From positions 4,167,001-4,231,000 of the forward strand of contig NZ_CP120683.1 in assembly GCF_030506325.1 (NCBI RefSeq): 64,000 nt of DNA, written 5' to 3'. The position numbers were made by a program, and so were the translations under genes. Under the pieces are notes generated by a model, which was not told the DNA's origin, did no database searches, and saw only the letters and a list, made by a program, of their open reading frames with translations. Shown here piece after piece: positions 2,657-29,235 of this stretch (position 1 is the first letter of the stretch; each line of letters starts with the position of its first letter). Origin of the DNA: Tunicatimonas pelagia. GTDB lineage: Bacteria > Bacteroidota > Bacteroidia > Cytophagales > Cyclobacteriaceae.

Positions 2657-4877
2657 TCGTTGCAGTTTTTAGACCTAACAATTGCTTCACTAGCGGTAAA
2701 GCCGTGGCGGCTCGCTCGTGATTGAATCCGGTATCCGGAGATACGCCCGCGGCTACCGAAACCGACTGTTTGCCATTTTTGGCTTTCTCTCCCAGTTTTC
2801 GTCGTTCGGGTTTGGAGAAAGTAGCAAAGCTGCGGCGCAGTACCGGAAGTATCTGCACCAATATTTCTTCGTCTAACTGAGCTACCCACTGATCAAGTAA
2901 TCCCCACAGGGTTTCATCCAGAATTAGCACCATGCCGCTTCCCTGAAGAAAACCTTCCAGCCAGGCAGCAGAGTAACTTGTTGATTGAGCCGACGAAAGG
3001 GCTAAGGAAAATTTCTGGGTAATGATGTCATCGTTCCAGATACTGCTTTCCGATAAAATCCGGCAGGCTTTACCCGCTATAATTCCGTTGATCTGCGAGT
3101 GGTCAGCCAGGCTTACCAACGCCTGATGCCAGAGCTGGGTATAATCATCCCGTTGAAGAATTCGTAATGCACTGTCCATTTCCTGAATTCTGTCAAAGGC
3201 TTCCGCAGCACTATCCTCGTTCAATGAAGTACAAGCATTGGGCAAACCAATACTGATTCGAGAAACTAAGCTATCTAGCACATGATTAATCATGGCGGTG
3301 TCGGTCTGACGGACATCGCCGTAGCGACTGATATTGGCCAACGGCGGTAGAGCCTGCATAAGTTGGAAAATATCGCCTGAAAGAGCCGCCAATTCATCCA
3401 GCTTCTGTAGCAAGTCAGTCAGAGCCGTCGGTAAGTTGGCAGGTAGGGTCTGCTCCAGTAATTGGGCTACCTCGCGTAAGGCCGAGACTTGAGTCAATTG
3501 CTGCCTGATGTAAGCCGAAGCCGCAGTTGCCACGGTATTACCCCAAATGCCTTTTTCTATAATCCGAATGGCAATCTCCGGCTCCCAGTATAAATTCCAC
3601 TGTTCCTTAAAGGTTCCCTTGCCCGATACGTGGGCTGGGGTGCCCCAGTTAATGCCTAATACGTACAAGCGATGGAGAAACTGGCTTCTTTCCCGATCCA
3701 AATCTTTCCGTAAATCCAACGTTAAGGCTTTGCGCTCGTCGCTGGGTTTTAGGCGGAGCTTTTTCTGATGCTGTAGCACATCCGACTGAAGCGGAACGGC
3801 GGGTACTTCGCTGGGCACTTCGCCCATTCGCTGCCCTACGATCAGAGCTTCCTGTACCAAATCTAGCAGGCTATCATCACCAAAAGATAGTACGGTATTG
3901 GTTGCTTCGTTGTACTCGGCCAAACCAGGTCGAGCCAAGTCTCTGAGGGCGGCTAGGGTGTCAGCCAGTCGGATGGCTTCAATCACGTGGGCGGTGGAAG
4001 TATCCATTTGGTGATGACGAAATACGCAAGCTACCTGGGTCATCCAGCCGTAGCCTCGCTCGTCGGGCTTAGCCTGCCAGATATGGTGGTACCAACCGGG
4101 TGACATCACTCCAGCTCCGTAGCCACTGGCAAACGTCAAGCGACGATACGTCCAGGGAATCCAGGTAGTTTCTATTTTGCATTTGGGTAGTCCTTTCAGA
4201 AGAAAGTTATCCTCTTTTTTAGGAGGACGATTTACTAAAGCCGGGGCATGCCAGGCACCGCAAACCACGGCTATGGTTTCATGATTTTTCTCTGCTTCGT
4301 GCAGAATTTTACGCATGTAGGCTTCCCGCAAGTCGTTCTCCCGATCTTCGGGTAAATCCAGCGTATCTCGTAGAGCAGTCATACCTTCCAGAATGGCGGC
4401 GAAGCTATCTTCATGGTTTAGGCGTAATTCAAACTGATGCTCCCACCACAGTTCGGTATCCGCAAATCCGGCAGCTCGTGCCAGATGGGTAAGCGGGTAT
4501 TCCGCCACATTGGTTTTTGCCTTTTCTGGCTTACTATCTTTTTCTTCCGATTCTTCGGGAGTAGCGAAGCGGTGTGCCAGTGGTAAGTCCATAAACTGCA
4601 CCGGAATACTGTTTTTCAGACCGTACTGAATTGCCTGCCATTCGGGAGAAAAATCCGCAAACGGATAAAAGGAAGCCTGCTGAGGTTGATCGGTGCGATA
4701 GGCTAATATGGCTACGGGTGGCTTAATATCGGGATTTTGTACGTAGGAGAGAATACCATCGGCCTCCGGTGGCCCTTCTACCAGCAGCACATCGGGCTTG
4801 AGTTGCTCCAGAGCCGCTTGTAGGCTACGGGCTGAACCCGGTCCGTGATGCCGAATACCTAAAACGTGTACGGACAT
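2649..4877 (-). CDS. DUF5682 family protein (YehM-like)
   Basis: A large 742-residue protein of the DUF5682 type. The N terminus reads GIRHHGPGSARSL (residues 7-19), followed by LLVEGPPEAD (residues 31-40). Near residue 210 a VVCGAWHAPAL segment adds a third histidine. This spacing of N-terminal HH, a Glu after a beta strand, and a later GxxH recalls the TIKI/TraB/erythromycin-esterase-like fold, but that link is inference. The second half is helical and not recognised. It lies between the MoxR ATPase (10-base gap) and the VWA gene (8-base overlap), so it is almost certainly co-translated with them. E. coli YehM is of similar length in the equivalent place. A hydrolase role is possible but unproven. 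Confidence 0.8.
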   Translation of the reverse strand: MSVHVLGIRHHGPGSARSLQAALEQLKPDVLLVEGPPEADGILSYVQNPDIKPPVAILAYRTDQPQQASFYPFADFSPEWQAIQYGLKNSIPVQFMDLPLAHRFATPEESEEKDSKPEKAKTNVAEYPLTHLARAAGFADTELWWEHQFELRLNHEDSFAAILEGMTALRDTLDLPEDRENDLREAYMRKILHEAEKNHETIAVVCGAWHAPALVNRPPKKEDNFLLKGLPKCKIETTWIPWTYRRLTFASGYGAGVMSPGWYHHIWQAKPDERGYGWMTQVACVFRHHQMDTSTAHVIEAIRLADTLAALRDLARPGLAEYNEATNTVLSFGDDSLLDLVQEALIVGQRMGEVPSEVPAVPLQSDVLQHQKKLRLKPSDERKALTLDLRKDLDRERSQFLHRLYVLGINWGTPAHVSGKGTFKEQWNLYWEPEIAIRIIEKGIWGNTVATAASAYIRQQLTQVSALREVAQLLEQTLPANLPTALTDLLQKLDELAALSGDIFQLMQALPPLANISRYGDVRQTDTAMINHVLDSLVSRISIGLPNACTSLNEDSAAEAFDRIQEMDSALRILQRDDYTQLWHQALVSLADHSQINGIIAGKACRILSESSIWNDDIITQKFSLALSSAQSTSYSAAWLEGFLQGSGMVLILDETLWGLLDQWVAQLDEEILVQILPVLRRSFATFSKPERRKLGEKAKNGKQSVSVAAGVSPDTGFNHERAATALPLVKQLLGLKTATNE

Positions 4878-23921: not shown

Positions 23922-24056
23922 TAGGAATTAAAAGTCAAATAACCGAAAAATGAATATTGCAGAAGATATTACACCTGTGGGCAAAAGCCAACTATTGCCT
24001 TAAAAAAATAAAGCTTTCCGGCTACCTTGCTTCGTCTTAATGATGGTGCGCCACTT

Positions 24057-27000
24057 ATGAGAAAGTTTCTATTTACATTTATTTTTTCACTGTGTACGGC
24101 GGTATTGCTGGCGCAAGCCCCGGTTATTACCCAACTGGATAAAACCCGAGGAACAGTATTCGAGGTGGTAACTATTCAGGGAAGTGGGTTTGGTACTGAT
24201 ACAGCGAACGTAGACGTGTTTTTCGGTGGGGTTTTAGCCGATTCTATCGCTCCGATCAGTTCGGGAGTACCCATGTTGGATACTGAAATTCAGGTACTGG
24301 TTCCACCGGGAGCTACCACCAGCAGTGTATCCGTTACCCGCACTGATACCCGACTGACGGCTTATTCGCCCGAAGTATTTTATATCAGCTACGACGGCGG
24401 AACCTTCGATAGAAATTTTATGGATGGCCCTTACAAATACGCTACTTCCGGTAACAATCTGTACAATTTGTGCTTCTGCGATTTTAACCAGGACGGCCTT
24501 AACGATATTGCTACTAGCGATCTTGATAGTGAGGAAATTACGGTTCTTCAGAATACGACCCCCAATATTGATACAGTGACTTTCACCCCAGTAGAGTTAG
24601 ATATAGAAGCCAGAACTCGCTGGCTGCGCTGCGGTGACCTAAACGGTGATGGCCTGCCCGAACTAGTATTTGCGGCTTCTAATGATAATGCTGAGGGAGG
24701 TAACTTAGCGTACGTCTACCAAAATACTAGTACTGGCGGAGTAATATCGTTTGATCTGGCTGATCCAATTAGACTTCCCATTGAGGGAAACCTAGCGGCT
24801 CGTATGGTGATTCGCGATATTGACATGGATGGAAAACCAGATATTACAGTAGCTGATATTTCGGCCGATGGGGGTGTCTCGGTTTTTCTAAATAACAGCA
24901 CTGGTTCAACAATTAGCTTTGTATCTACCCCGAGCCTTCCGTTTGCTGTGTTTGGCATTAGCAGTACCGAACTAAGCGGTATTGCAGTAGAAGACTTTAG
25001 TGGTGATGGTATTCCTGATATTGCGGTGAGCGAAGATGAGAATAGTGGCATCTACGTTATTACCAATATTAGTACACCAAGTTCGCTCGGGTTTGGCGCA
25101 CTTACCGAATTAACGGCTTCGGGACGAACGACTAACCTGAAAGCTGGTGACCTGGACAACGATGGATTGATTGATCTGGTAGTCGTTAATGACTCGTACG
25201 TAGGAGCATTGCGGAATACTTCGCAAAATGGGGTAGTTAGCTTTGCCAGTCCAGTACGTTTTGACCAAACTAATTTGGGAAGAGAAGGATTAGAACTAGT
25301 AGATATAGATGGAAACGGTTTGCTCGATATAGCCGTAGCTGCTCAAAACCGAAATTGGATCGTTCTTTTACTGAACAAGAGTACGCTAGGCTCACTTGAT
25401 TTTAACACTAAGCAGGTATTGCTAGCCGACGAAAACTCACTCAGTGTGCGGGGTGGCGACCTGAACGGCGACGGGAAGCCGGATTTGGCCTACACCGAAA
25501 CGGCAACGGATCAGATCGCTATTCAGCTTAACCGTAATTGTATCACTCCGGTGCTAGAACCGCAGGGTGGCTTAGGAGTTTGCGATCAATTACCTTATCA
25601 GCTTTCGGTAACCAAAGCTATCGGAGCTGAGTACGTTTGGGAAAGCTCAGGTGATGGAACCAGTTTTACTCCGATGGCGGAAGCGACTGATTCTACTTTT
25701 ACCTTTACTACCAGCAACGAGATATTCTACCGGGTGAGAGTATCTTCTACTAATAAAACCTTCGTTTGCTCGCCTACCGCATCTAATCAGGTGGAGGTTG
25801 TCCGTCCCGATGGTTTCGTGCCTTCTAAGCCAACCATTGTTAATAAAAATCCGGCTGAGCCGGTATGCTTTGGTGAAAGTATATCGTTGCAAGCCGAAAC
25901 TGTCAATGCCGAGTATTTCTGGACTGGGCCTAATGATTTCAGCTCTAATGATCCAAACCCCGTTATTCCTGATGCTGATAAAACCAAAGAAGGTGTTTAC
26001 GTGCTTTATGTACAGGCTAGTGAAGAAAATGGCGGATGCGTTAGCGATACGGCTACCACTTTTGTAAAGGTTAGTGAACCTGAAGCAATTACCGCCACTG
26101 CCGGGCAAGTTCCGGTTTTCTTTGAAGGAAGCAATGTACAGCTTACCGTAAACCCAGTAGATGGTCAGACCTTTGGATGGAGGCGTAACGACGAAACCAT
26201 TGCGGATGCCAACGAGCTATCTTTCACTACCAACAGCGAAGGCACTTACGTAGCCGTAACGCAAAATGCTGAAGGATGCTTACGGGAAAGTAATCCAATA
26301 GAAGTGGCCTTCGCCCGGCCTGAGATTTCGGCTGAACTCTGCCTCAATGAAGCCGGGCAGTTTGTTATTAGTCCTGATAGTCTGAATGGCCAAGAAATTT
26401 GGTATCGCTGGATTTTCGAAGGAAATACTGAAGAGGGAGATACGGTTTCGTATCAGTTTACTAATGCCGGAACCCAGACAGTAGCCATAGAAATTTTGAG
26501 CGGTGACGGCGCAGTCCGGGATCGCTACGAACAAACGATGGAAGTATTAGAGATTCCTAATTTAGCAGTGCAGGCGGCCAGTAACCCAAACCTGTGCCCC
26601 AATGCCAATGTAGTACTAGAAGCCAACGAAGGTTTTGCTACCTATCTGTGGAACACCCAATCAACCGAGCGCAGTATTACGGTAAGCCAGCCCGGAACCT
26701 ACATCCTGACGGTTACTGCCGAAAACGGATGTAATGATTTTGAAGAATTCACGGTAGAAGAGGCTGATAATCCGGTGGGTGAAATCACGGCCTCAACGGA
26801 TCGGATTGCCCTGGGAGATACTTTACAGTTACAAGCGTTGGGTGGAGATACTTATCAATGGGAAAGTGATATTTCTCTGAGCGATAGCACCATTGCTAAT
26901 CCGTTAGTACGCCCGTTGGTTACCACTACTTACATCTGCGTGATTATTAACGAAGCAGGCTGTGCCGATTCGGTAGAATTTACCGTAATGGTTGATCGCC

Positions 27001-27275
27001 AGCTAGATGTTGTTCCCGAACGAGCCTTCACTCCCAACAACGATGGCAACAATGATACTTGGTACATCGAGAAGATGGAGCTCTATCCCGATTGTCGTTT
27101 AACCCTGTTTAATCGGCAGGGCATCAAATTGTACGAACAAGAAAACTACAGTAACCTTCAGCCTTGGGATGGAACTGCCAACGGAACCCTTGTGCCCCCT
27201 GGTGTCTATTTTTATTTGATTAATTGCGGTGAAGAAGCAGGTACCCAAACCGGTAGCGTCACGATTATTCGTTAG
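24057..27275 (+). CDS. FG-GAP repeat surface protein with T9SS gliding-type C-terminal domain
   Basis: A 1072-residue exported protein. The ATG at 24057 starts a signal peptide (MRKFLFTFIFSLCTAVLLAQ); an upstream TTG at 24027 would add 10 residues. After an IPT/TIG-like domain (residues about 22-105) there are seven FG-GAP/VCBS repeats with Ca-binding DxDGxPD turns, from about residue 140 to 480, forming a beta-propeller. Ig/PKD-like domains follow (residues about 500-960). The C-terminal 85 residues are the type B sorting domain: FTPNNDGNNDTWYIEKMELYPD and DGTANGTLVPPGVYFYLI. It should cross the outer membrane by type IX secretion and sit on the cell surface. Ligand unknown. Confidence 0.9.
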   Translation: MRKFLFTFIFSLCTAVLLAQAPVITQLDKTRGTVFEVVTIQGSGFGTDTANVDVFFGGVLADSIAPISSGVPMLDTEIQVLVPPGATTSSVSVTRTDTRLTAYSPEVFYISYDGGTFDRNFMDGPYKYATSGNNLYNLCFCDFNQDGLNDIATSDLDSEEITVLQNTTPNIDTVTFTPVELDIEARTRWLRCGDLNGDGLPELVFAASNDNAEGGNLAYVYQNTSTGGVISFDLADPIRLPIEGNLAARMVIRDIDMDGKPDITVADISADGGVSVFLNNSTGSTISFVSTPSLPFAVFGISSTELSGIAVEDFSGDGIPDIAVSEDENSGIYVITNISTPSSLGFGALTELTASGRTTNLKAGDLDNDGLIDLVVVNDSYVGALRNTSQNGVVSFASPVRFDQTNLGREGLELVDIDGNGLLDIAVAAQNRNWIVLLLNKSTLGSLDFNTKQVLLADENSLSVRGGDLNGDGKPDLAYTETATDQIAIQLNRNCITPVLEPQGGLGVCDQLPYQLSVTKAIGAEYVWESSGDGTSFTPMAEATDSTFTFTTSNEIFYRVRVSSTNKTFVCSPTASNQVEVVRPDGFVPSKPTIVNKNPAEPVCFGESISLQAETVNAEYFWTGPNDFSSNDPNPVIPDADKTKEGVYVLYVQASEENGGCVSDTATTFVKVSEPEAITATAGQVPVFFEGSNVQLTVNPVDGQTFGWRRNDETIADANELSFTTNSEGTYVAVTQNAEGCLRESNPIEVAFARPEISAELCLNEAGQFVISPDSLNGQEIWYRWIFEGNTEEGDTVSYQFTNAGTQTVAIEILSGDGAVRDRYEQTMEVLEIPNLAVQAASNPNLCPNANVVLEANEGFATYLWNTQSTERSITVSQPGTYILTVTAENGCNDFEEFTVEEADNPVGEITASTDRIALGDTLQLQALGGDTYQWESDISLSDSTIANPLVRPLVTTTYICVIINEAGCADSVEFTVMVDRQLDVVPERAFTPNNDGNNDTWYIEKMELYPDCRLTLFNRQGIKLYEQENYSNLQPWDGTANGTLVPPGVYFYLINCGEEAGTQTGSVTIIR

Positions 27276-27358
27276 TTAGCAATCGAATAAAAAATCAAAA
27301 AAAATGTATCTTTTACAGCGTTTACTGGTCTACTTATTGAACCATTAAACTTTAGATT

Positions 27359-27472
27359 ATGAATAATTGTGAATGTACCAACTGTGAATGTACTAAATGC
27401 AATTGTCAAAATTGCGCGAAAGGTAATTGCTCTTGCTCTAAATGTGAATGCAACAAGTGCAAATGCTGTTAA
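27359..27472 (+). CDS. Metallothionein-like 37-residue cysteine-rich protein
   Basis: A tiny ORF with 14 cysteines in 37 residues, at positions 4, 6, 9, 11, 14, 16, 19, 24, 26, 29, 31, 34, 36 and 37. The cysteines occur as C-x-C-x-x repeats, typical of metallothionein-like zinc, copper or cadmium binding. There are no aromatic or large hydrophobic residues apart from the initiator Met. It is well defined: ATG, then a continuous frame to TAA, then a strong terminator seven bases on. It sits immediately upstream of a SigZ-like sigma factor with its own cysteine tail. Metal binding is inference from composition; a transcript and mass-spectrometric metal content would settle it. Confidence 0.65.
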   Translation: MNNCECTNCECTKCNCQNCAKGNCSCSKCECNKCKCC

Positions 27473-27479
27473 TTTAGAT

Positions 27480-27510
27480 AAAGGCTAGTTTAAGTACTAG
27501 CCTTTAATTT
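27480..27510 (+). terminator. Intrinsic terminator after metallothionein-like gene
   Basis: A 10-base perfect stem, AAAGGCTAGT (27480-27489) and ACTAGCCTTT (27496-27505), loop TTAAGT, followed by AATTTTT. It lies between the cysteine-rich ORF and the sigma factor gene, so the small protein appears to be its own transcription unit, with some readthrough possible. Confidence 0.75.
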
Positions 27511-27516
27511 TTGACT

Positions 27517-28035
27517 ATGGAAACGCAAGACGTATGGAACAGTTTTAATGACGAACTTTACTTTTTTCTTCTTAAGAAAGTTAAAGATACAGATGTAGCC
27601 AACGATATCTTTCAAAGTACCTTCTTGAAAATCCATAAAAATCTGCCCAAGCTTAAAGAAGAGGAAAAAGTAAAAGCGTGGATTTTTCAAATTGCCCGCA
27701 ACGAGATAGCAAATTACTTTAATGCCGAGGCTATTTACGTAGATAATTCGGCTACGAACGAAGAAACTCCTTTACAAGAATATCAATTTGTATGTTGTTT
27801 TGATAAACTGATCAATGACCTACCCGAAATTTACCAAGAGGTTATTAACATGGTTTACATCAAGGGGCATAAACAAAAAGATGTGGCAAACGAATTGGGA
27901 ATAAGTCTTGAAAACACAAAAGCAAGAATTAGAAGAGCAAAGGATATACTAAAGGAAAAATTCCAAGAATGCTGTAAATATGAGCTTGATAAGAAAGGTA
28001 AGTTAACCGGAGAATCTAATTGCTCAATCTGTTGA
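27517..28035 (+). CDS. SigZ-like ECF sigma factor with C-terminal cysteine tail
   Basis: A 172-residue ECF sigma factor. Region 2 spans about residues 7-75 (VANDIFQSTFLKIHKN.., KVKAWIFQIARNEIANYF) and region 4 spans about 95-145 (LINDLPEIYQEVINMVYIKGHKQKDVANELGISLENTKARIRRAK). The start is the ATG at 27517; a TTG at 27511 is possible. The C-terminal tail has C152-C153 and C169-x-x-C172 (ECC..., NCSIC), and there is another pair C93-C94 (FVCCF). SigZ-type factors carry such a tail, and in Myxococcus CorE-type sigma factors a C-terminal cysteine domain senses metal directly, without an anti-sigma factor. No anti-sigma gene is adjacent here. It may control the small cysteine-rich gene just upstream. 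Confidence 0.82.
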   Translation: METQDVWNSFNDELYFFLLKKVKDTDVANDIFQSTFLKIHKNLPKLKEEEKVKAWIFQIARNEIANYFNAEAIYVDNSATNEETPLQEYQFVCCFDKLINDLPEIYQEVINMVYIKGHKQKDVANELGISLENTKARIRRAKDILKEKFQECCKYELDKKGKLTGESNCSIC

Positions 28036-28332: not shown

Positions 28333-29235
28333 ATGTTGAAAATTGCTTGGTCGGAAATTTACGCCCATCCCTTGCCCGAAAATCATCGCTTCCCGATGGA
28401 AAAGTATAACCTGCTTCCCGAGCAGCTACTGTACGAAGGCACCATCACTCCAGAAAACTTCTTTGCCCCAGTGCTCTTGGAGGAGAAATACATTACGAAT
28501 ACGCACGCATCCGAATACTGGCATCGGCTAAAGAATCAAGAGTTAACCAAATCGGAGGTGCGGAAGACGGGATTTCCTATGTCAGACCAACTTGTGCAAC
28601 GCGAAATAACCATTATGCAGGGTACGGTTCAGGCTGCTCTGTTTGCACTGGAGTTTGGCGTAGCATTCAATATTGCGGGTGGCACTCACCACGCATTTAC
28701 CGACCGAGGGGAAGGTTTTTGCTTGCTCAACGACATTGCGATCGCCGCTAATTACCTGCGCGAAAGAAATTTGGCGGAACAAATACTGGTGGTTGATTTG
28801 GACGTACACCAAGGCAATGGAACAGCACAAATCTTCCAGTACACCTCAGATGTTTTCACCTTCAGTATGCATGGAGCTAAGAACTACCCCATGCACAAGG
28901 AAAAGTCAGATATGGATATTGCTTTGCCCGACGGAGCGGACGACGCTATCTATCTGCGAAAACTTCGGGAAGTGTTACCGCGTTTACTGGATGAGGTTAT
29001 GCCTGACTTTATCTTCTTTCAGTCGGGAGTAGATGTGTTGGCATCGGACAAGCTAGGACGGTTAGGTTTAACCATTAACGGTTGTCGGGAGCGCGATCAG
29101 GTTGTTTTAGAACTTTGCCATCGGAACCAGCTTCCGGTGGCACTGAGCATGGGAGGAGGGTACTCCGAGAAAATTGCCCATATTGTAGAAGCCCACGCCA
29201 ACACGTATCGGTTAGCTCAGAAGATATTTTTTTAA
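28333..29235 (+). CDS. Histone deacetylase family (HDAC-like) zinc deacetylase
   Basis: A 300-residue enzyme of the arginase/deacetylase fold. It has the active-site histidines H119-H120 in GGTHHAF and metal ligands D157 and H159 in VVDLDVHQGNGTA. The further metal-site Asp is in FFQSGVDVLASDKLGRL, and a GGGY segment lies near the end. Bacterial members remove acetyl groups from polyamines, lysine or acetoin-related substrates. Specificity cannot be deduced from sequence. The start is an ATG at 28333, which fits the MLKIAWSEIYAHPLP opening. A 78-residue membrane protein gene and a rhomboid gene follow on the same strand. Confidence 0.9.
   Translation: MLKIAWSEIYAHPLPENHRFPMEKYNLLPEQLLYEGTITPENFFAPVLLEEKYITNTHASEYWHRLKNQELTKSEVRKTGFPMSDQLVQREITIMQGTVQAALFALEFGVAFNIAGGTHHAFTDRGEGFCLLNDIAIAANYLRERNLAEQILVVDLDVHQGNGTAQIFQYTSDVFTFSMHGAKNYPMHKEKSDMDIALPDGADDAIYLRKLREVLPRLLDEVMPDFIFFQSGVDVLASDKLGRLGLTINGCRERDQVVLELCHRNQLPVALSMGGGYSEKIAHIVEAHANTYRLAQKIFF

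Follow-up and report, generated by a model that had tools for sequence, protein, structure and literature searches.

Bacterial metallothioneins such as SmtA/BmtA and MymT are very small, cysteine-rich proteins with CxC motifs that presumably bind metals through thiolates, and their genes are under the control of ArsR/SmtB-type or similar repressors. Arsenic detoxification genes are found in ars operons (ArsR, ACR3, ArsC, ArsM, ArsI/CadI), which are subject to repression by ArsR. Metal-dependent sigma factors are known as well. CorE and CorE2 from Myxococcus xanthus belong to ECF238 (formerly ECF44). In CorE, cysteines in the linker and at the C terminus are required for metal-dependent activity (PMC8999054, PMC3107203). 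CorE-like proteins have a CXC motif in the linker between sigma2 and sigma4, and ECF287 and ECF288 are other groups of ECF sigma factors with cysteine tails (PMC8999054). For the SigZ family (Bacillus subtilis type; TIGR02959 and NF007215), we found no described function in the literature that we searched.

In a 64,000-nucleotide stretch of the genome of Tunicatimonas pelagia ("the window"), a gene for a metallothionein-like peptide lies just upstream of a gene for a SigZ-like sigma factor. The initial annotation of this DNA had suggested a compact locus for binding and sensing metals. Comparative evidence now lends strong support to that idea (the conserved pairing, a promoter motif, and the neighbors of sister sigma factors), except that these neighbors suggest arsenic/cadmium-type thiophiles instead of the copper of CorE. 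We think it somewhat probable that these genes form a self-contained metal(loid)-stress operon that is horizontally mobile and whose SigZ-like sigma factor is gated by its own cysteines. Its features are:

27305..27335, + strand: promoter-like motif, TGTATCTTTT-N13-GTCTACTT (fixed spacing in 15/15 loci with both genes)
27359..27472, + strand: mini-metallothionein-like gene, 37 aa, 14 Cys (open reading frame and translation; conservation)
27479..27506, + strand: hairpin of 11 pairs with a T-rich tail, between the two genes (fold and covariation)
27517..28035, + strand: SigZ-like ECF sigma factor, 172 aa (Pfam/NCBIfam; ECF fold in the AF2 model)
27793..27798, + strand: codons of C93 C94 in the sigma2-sigma4 linker (CC in 15/15 window-type sigma factors)
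27970..28032, + strand: cysteine tail, C152 C153 ... C169xxC172 (kept in most SigZ-family sequences)

Like CorE and CorE2, the window's sigma factor is an ECF sigma near metal-resistance genes, with cysteines in the linker, a cysteine-bearing C-terminal extension, and no anti-sigma factor. It differs in having CC, not CXC, in the linker (15/15 relatives) and a short CC...CxxC tail with four cysteines, and its best family match is to SigZ. Also, its partner is a mini-metallothionein, its regulon looks like a single locus, and the genes near its relatives suggest arsenic or cadmium, not copper. Because the defining CXC is missing, we do not file it as CorE-like. Our best reading, by analogy, is that the protein may work like CorE.

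The resemblance to SigZ includes a best match over almost the entire length, the CC in the tail, and the same type of promoter in relatives; the differences are scores under both curated cut-offs, the extra CC in the linker, and the pairing with a 14-cysteine peptide. The peptide is like SmtA/BmtA and MymT in its size, its cysteines, and its CxC motifs. However, it fits none of the metallothionein models in Pfam or NCBIfam, it has only 37 residues (38% cysteine, without histidine or aromatic residues), and its predicted control is by a positive sigma factor instead of a repressor. Similarly, the enzymes that we found beside SigZ genes are of the same class as those in ars operons, but SigZ is predicted to be a positive switch that has a promoter motif of its own and acts in place of, or together with, repression by ArsR.

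Cysteine-tailed ECF sigma factors that sense metals are already known, as are metallothioneins. What appear to be new are the pairing of a mini-metallothionein with a sigma factor, a regulon of one locus, and the promoter code of SigZ. In the open-access literature that we searched, we found no link between metallothioneins or arsenite and either SigZ or ECF sigma factors, and SigZ appears together with cadmium only in Bacillus genome papers.

A mini-metallothionein-like peptide under purifying selection

The product of 27359-27472 is MNNCECTNCECTKCNCQNCAKGNCSCSKCECNKCKCC. It has seven CxC/CC motifs and the general sequence character of a metallothionein: it is small and cysteine-rich, with CxC motifs and no aromatic residues or histidines. 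It had no hits to any Pfam or NCBIfam family at E values up to 1 (metallothionein models included), and a sequence search of the PDB returned no match.

An open reading frame this short and without a family match could be a chance, untranslated cysteine-rich frame, but we consider this scarcely credible and rejected it. Between the window genome (G000) and its congener G003, dN = 0.043 and dS = 0.84, so the peptide is under strong purifying selection (dN/dS of about 0.05). All 14 cysteines align in 15 of 16 peptides (the exception, L038, has 12), and the distance to the promoter motif and the synteny with the sigma gene (15 genomes) are conserved. The window has one open reading frame with at least 10 cysteines and at least 30% cysteine, whereas neither 15 Markov shuffles of the window nor the control loci (about 0.7 Mb) had any. 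The 14-cysteine metallothionein-like gene that had been proposed from the sequence is therefore real.

Members of the peptide family are also found without a sigma gene (L037, L124, L125, and L126). Compared to L034 and L038, which are from the same genus, L037 (G134:C1) retains the mini-metallothionein and its neighbors and has neither the sigma gene nor the promoter motif; comparison of these sequences identifies it as a natural co-loss of the two. In L126 (G579:C83), the relative at 1480-1611 lies between an AhpC-type peroxidase gene (identified by eye) and a convergent gene for a ZIP transporter.

The pair is conserved and was probably acquired from Flavobacteriaceae

The mini-metallothionein gene is directly upstream of the sigma gene, head to tail, in 15 genomes from two classes. 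A first search identified the pair in G003 and in G050, which belongs to another family of the order (sigma factors 90% and 37% identical to the window's, respectively). Searching genome contigs with a profile of the peptide and with the sigma factor added Flavobacteriaceae and the second class: the pair is present in Salegentibacter, Aquimarina, Maribacter, Psychroflexus, Joostella, and Polaribacter, whose sigma factors are 68-74% identical to the window's. Conservation of the short gene beside SigZ-like genes in related genomes, which the initial annotation had named as a check, was thus borne out.

In a tree of the sigma factors, the window and G003 fall inside a clade of mainly Flavobacteriaceae, next to Aquimarina (96/95). 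In two other congeners (G001 and G002), the same flanking genes lack the pair between them, and G002 has another gene there. The position in the tree and these pair-less sites make horizontal acquisition of the module the most likely history, probably as an operon gained from Flavobacteriaceae, judging from these sequences. Alternatively, G001 and G002 may have lost the pair. As had been noticed from the sequence, the operon is richer in AT than its surroundings: its GC content is 0.327 (mean of the window, 0.448), and none of the 755-nt stretches that we sampled from the window was lower.

The flanking genes in the window encode a repeat protein of 1082 aa whose C-terminal end is of the gliding type (24027-27275) and a histone-deacetylase-like protein (28333-29235), both identified by eye. 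The junction between these flanks is empty in G001.

In G187 and G289, a complete ars operon (ArsR, DUF6428, an ArsC-like protein, and ACR3) is directly upstream of the pair, and in G196, ars genes are about 4 kb away. In most of the window-type loci, the peptide gene is the only metal-type gene nearby, so any assignment of the ligand is tentative. The mini-protein might instead store copper or zinc, with the link to arsenic limited to other branches of SigZ. CxC-rich peptides of about 37 residues can bind Cu(I) or Zn(II), the orphan relative in L126 adjoins the ZIP zinc transporter gene, and the SigZ of L251 is near a gene that resembles heavy-metal P-type ATPases (identified by eye). However, the contiguous ars operon (genus g83) and the nearby ars genes (g136) are from the window's own subgroup, and we consider storage of copper or zinc somewhat unlikely.

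A predicted promoter and a predicted one-locus regulon

The motif TGTATCTTTT-N13-GTCTAC is located 54-59 nt upstream of the ATG of the mini-metallothionein. Versions with the same spacing are present in 15/15 loci with both genes and in 0/4 loci with the peptide alone (p = 2.6e-4). Even the locus of the 37%-identical sigma factor (G050) has a version, TGCGTCTTTT...GTCTCC. We propose, from its sequence and distribution, that 27305-27335 is a SigZ-type promoter for the operon. A promoter scan of the upstream region found no sigma-70-type promoter.

The exact motif has one match in the 7.3-Mb window genome, which is at the operon. Using a relaxed pattern in 11 other genomes that carry the operon, we found a match at the operon in 10 of them; all eight of the zero-mismatch matches were at the operon, and a sister genome without the sigma gene had no match. 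These patterns strongly indicate that the operon is autoregulated by its own sigma factor, and we predict that the regulon is a single site at its own locus. We also considered a wider regulon, and rejected it after searching G000 and 12 other genomes with mismatches allowed. The exact matches were confined to the operon, and of 11 off-locus matches with one mismatch that we checked, 10 overlap a called open reading frame and one has no open reading frame close by.

The hairpin between the two genes

The hairpin at 27479-27506 had been described as a strong terminator. The hairpin itself is real: across 10 relatives, 95.5% of the cells are paired, there are compensatory changes, and the covariation score exceeds those of all 500 shuffles. 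Its location, though, is within the operon instead of at the end of a locus. In another class of mini-metallothionein, the spacer that separates the peptide gene from the sigma gene is unrelated and likewise contains a strong hairpin. The hairpin is probably a leaky terminator that would allow much peptide and little sigma factor to be made. Scans of the window for Rfam families and tRNAs found nothing.

The SigZ-like sigma factor and its cysteines

The most likely start of the sigma gene is the ATG at 27517 (there is also an in-frame TTG at 27511). Both Pfam and NCBIfam identify the protein as an ECF sigma-70 factor, and its best families are NF007215 (E = 2e-44) and TIGR02959 (E = 5e-42). 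It scores 143.5 bits with TIGR02959 (curated cut-off, 168.65 bits) and 151.5 bits with NF007215 (curated cut-off, 212 bits), below the threshold in both cases, so we call it SigZ-like. Residues 1-165 of 172 match the SigZ models, a full-length match with sigma2 and sigma4 domains. SigZ might belong to ECF287 or ECF288.

CC occurs twice in this protein, once in the linker (C93C94) and once in the tail (C152C153), and the tail ends in C169xxC172; the CC and CxxC pairs that were first noticed in the tail are confirmed. Window-type sigma factors keep the CC of the linker and the CC...CxxC of the tail (in L034, a small insertion interrupts the last pair). Across SigZ-family sequences, C152, C153, C169, and C172 are cysteine in 51/53, 48/53, 50/53, and 47/53, respectively. 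C94 is present in 25/25 of the mini-metallothionein-linked sigma factors that were first tabulated (and in L224, which was recognized later) and in 0/10 of the CadI-linked ones, but the tree has only a handful of independent changes behind this correlation, not enough to test it. The AF2 model has an ordinary ECF fold with confident domains and poor inter-domain confidence (pTM 0.42), which leaves the geometry between linker and tail undefined. Structures in the PDB hardly cover the tail past residue 157, so they have no bearing on whether it is novel.

As the initial annotation had stated, there is no anti-sigma gene adjacent to the sigma gene, nor did we see one beside any of the 15 window-type loci. 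Given the conserved cysteines, the lack of a neighboring anti-sigma gene, and the precedent of CorE, we infer that the sigma factor may sense its ligand directly. On the other hand, many ECF sigma factors have anti-sigma partners and zinc-stabilized cysteine motifs are common, so the protein might be controlled by its amount, by an unlinked anti-sigma factor, or by another regulator, with cysteines that hold structural zinc and an operon that responds to metals only indirectly. We consider this unlikely, given the lack of anti-sigma genes beside the window-type loci. Also, the number and spacing of the tail cysteines vary among SigZ subgroups and the linker cysteines are absent from CadI-linked SigZ proteins, unlike a fixed structural site.

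Genes near other SigZ factors

We surveyed 40 further SigZ-family loci from Bacteroidota genomes, along with 93 control loci that contain ECF sigma factors of other kinds. Mini-metallothioneins were defined as open reading frames of 18-70 aa within 600 bp of the sigma gene with at least 6 cysteines and at least 20% cysteine. These are present in 11/40 SigZ loci, always on the sigma gene's strand, and in 0/93 controls. (This count includes L224; a match in L215 was the sigma factor's own tail and was excluded.) Several architectures occur: peptides of 26-27 or 43 aa downstream of the sigma gene, and peptides of 30, 32, 33-34, or 48 aa upstream.

Another 18 SigZ genes have ArsM, ArsI/CadI, ACR3, ArsC, or ArsP genes within 1.5 kb, as compared to 0/93 controls; CadI became a query after it was sighted near SigZ, and the controls were run with the same queries. 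Representatives were verified with NCBIfam (ArsI/CadI, ArsM, and ACR3) or Pfam (ArsP). Without counting L224, a mini-metallothionein or metal(loid) gene is present at 28/40 SigZ loci and 0/93 controls (p = 1.2e-19; several SigZ loci share a genus, the controls are phylogenetically unmatched, and 73 of the controls were viewed with only about 3 kb of flank). The window genome has a second SigZ-like gene (L182/L232, G000:C1:7137516-7138016), and immediately next to it is a gene of the ArsI/CadI family (NF041414).

Tiny CC-rich peptides of another type (for instance, MGDDCCGGGCCGGGSSTGCC) are encoded near SigZ genes in L006 (2086-2148), L148 (5606-5674), and L184 (2627-2731), and just upstream of the sigma gene in L247. 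From their sequences, these may represent a second class of mini-proteins that bind metal(loid)s.

Vicinal cysteine pairs are also typical of redox sensors, and one mini-metallothionein without a sigma gene adjoins the AhpC-type peroxidase gene. The cysteines of the sigma factor might therefore sense thiol or redox stress by forming a disulfide, and the mini-metallothionein might be a thiol buffer or a scavenger of oxidants. But the genes beside SigZ are specific to arsenic or cadmium (ArsM, ArsI/CadI, ACR3, and ArsC), and we consider a redox function quite unlikely.

A proposed mechanism for the operon

Under the metal(loid)-gated reading that we prefer, the SigZ-like sigma factor would have little or no activity before it binds a thiophilic ion, for which As(III) is the most likely candidate and Cd(II) or Zn(II) are possible. 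The ion would bind the CC in the linker and the CC and CxxC in the tail, and this would change the arrangement of sigma2 and sigma4 without the need for an anti-sigma factor. The active sigma factor would read one promoter in the genome (27305-27335) and transcribe its own operon, and the leaky hairpin at 27479-27506 would yield far more mRNA for the mini-metallothionein than for the sigma factor. The 14-cysteine peptide would then chelate the ion and withdraw it from the sigma factor, which would close the loop. As(III) or Cd(II) is the likely ligand given the neighboring genes, including the ars operon beside the pair in G187 and G289 and the ars genes near it in G196. The negative feedback by the peptide is similarly an expectation of this model. 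If direct sensing is correct, then these genes are compact, transplantable parts for metal(loid) biosensors.

A predicted promoter code for the SigZ family

SigZ-family loci are marked by a motif of the form TGYRTCYTTT-N12/13-GTCT. A strict scan with TG(C/T/A)(A/G)TC(C/T)TTT-N12-14-GTCT gave 24 matches in 0.5 Mb of SigZ loci, 22 of which adjoin the sigma gene. Shuffled sequences averaged 0.35 matches, and the 0.7 Mb of control loci had none. Because the motif was first spotted by eye in some of the scanned SigZ loci, the control DNA and a test with whole genomes carry the most weight. In 18 whole genomes, a version with fixed spacing had 12 matches, 11 of them at SigZ loci, and the six of these genomes without a called SigZ had no match to it.

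The motif precedes mini-metallothioneins of each architecture, CadI and ArsM genes, and often the sigma genes. Where the sigma gene is upstream of the mini-metallothionein, each of the two genes has its own copy. Further instances are upstream of a CadI-like gene (L008) and a thioredoxin-like gene (L012).

Our best reading of these comparisons is that SigZ factors may be one-locus, autoregulated switches that are gated by a thiophilic metal(loid) on their own cysteines. A stronger proposal is that the whole family senses As(III)-type ions directly and uses the code TGYRTCYTTT-N12/13-GTCT, with mini-metallothioneins or arsenic/cadmium enzymes repeatedly acquired as the main output. We make this proposal tentatively, and it could well be wrong. 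If family-wide sensing of As(III) is true, it gives SigZ a function, and these would be, to our knowledge, the first arsenic-sensing sigma factors. More broadly, for a family with no described role that we could find, the comparisons supply a promoter code, the size of the regulon (the family member's own locus), likely outputs (mini-metallothioneins and arsenic or cadmium detoxification), and candidate sensor residues, and these readings can be tested in one strain. Mini-metallothioneins of 26-48 residues are under the usual limits for gene calling and may be widespread, and the SigZ motif is an aid to finding them.

Two other loci have SigZ-type motifs beside divergent genes. In L151, from a plasmid of Priestia megaterium (NZ_CP137803.1), a loose version (TGCATCTTTTTTCATTTTATCTCGTC) is on the - strand at about 3438-3463, between sigZ and a divergent aldo/keto reductase gene; this sequence hints that the promoter code reaches Bacillota. 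In L217 (G293:C3), an exact motif on the - strand, about 340 bp upstream of the sigma gene, faces a divergent MATE-like efflux gene (identified by eye) beside SigZ, which suggests that efflux pumps may be another output of SigZ.
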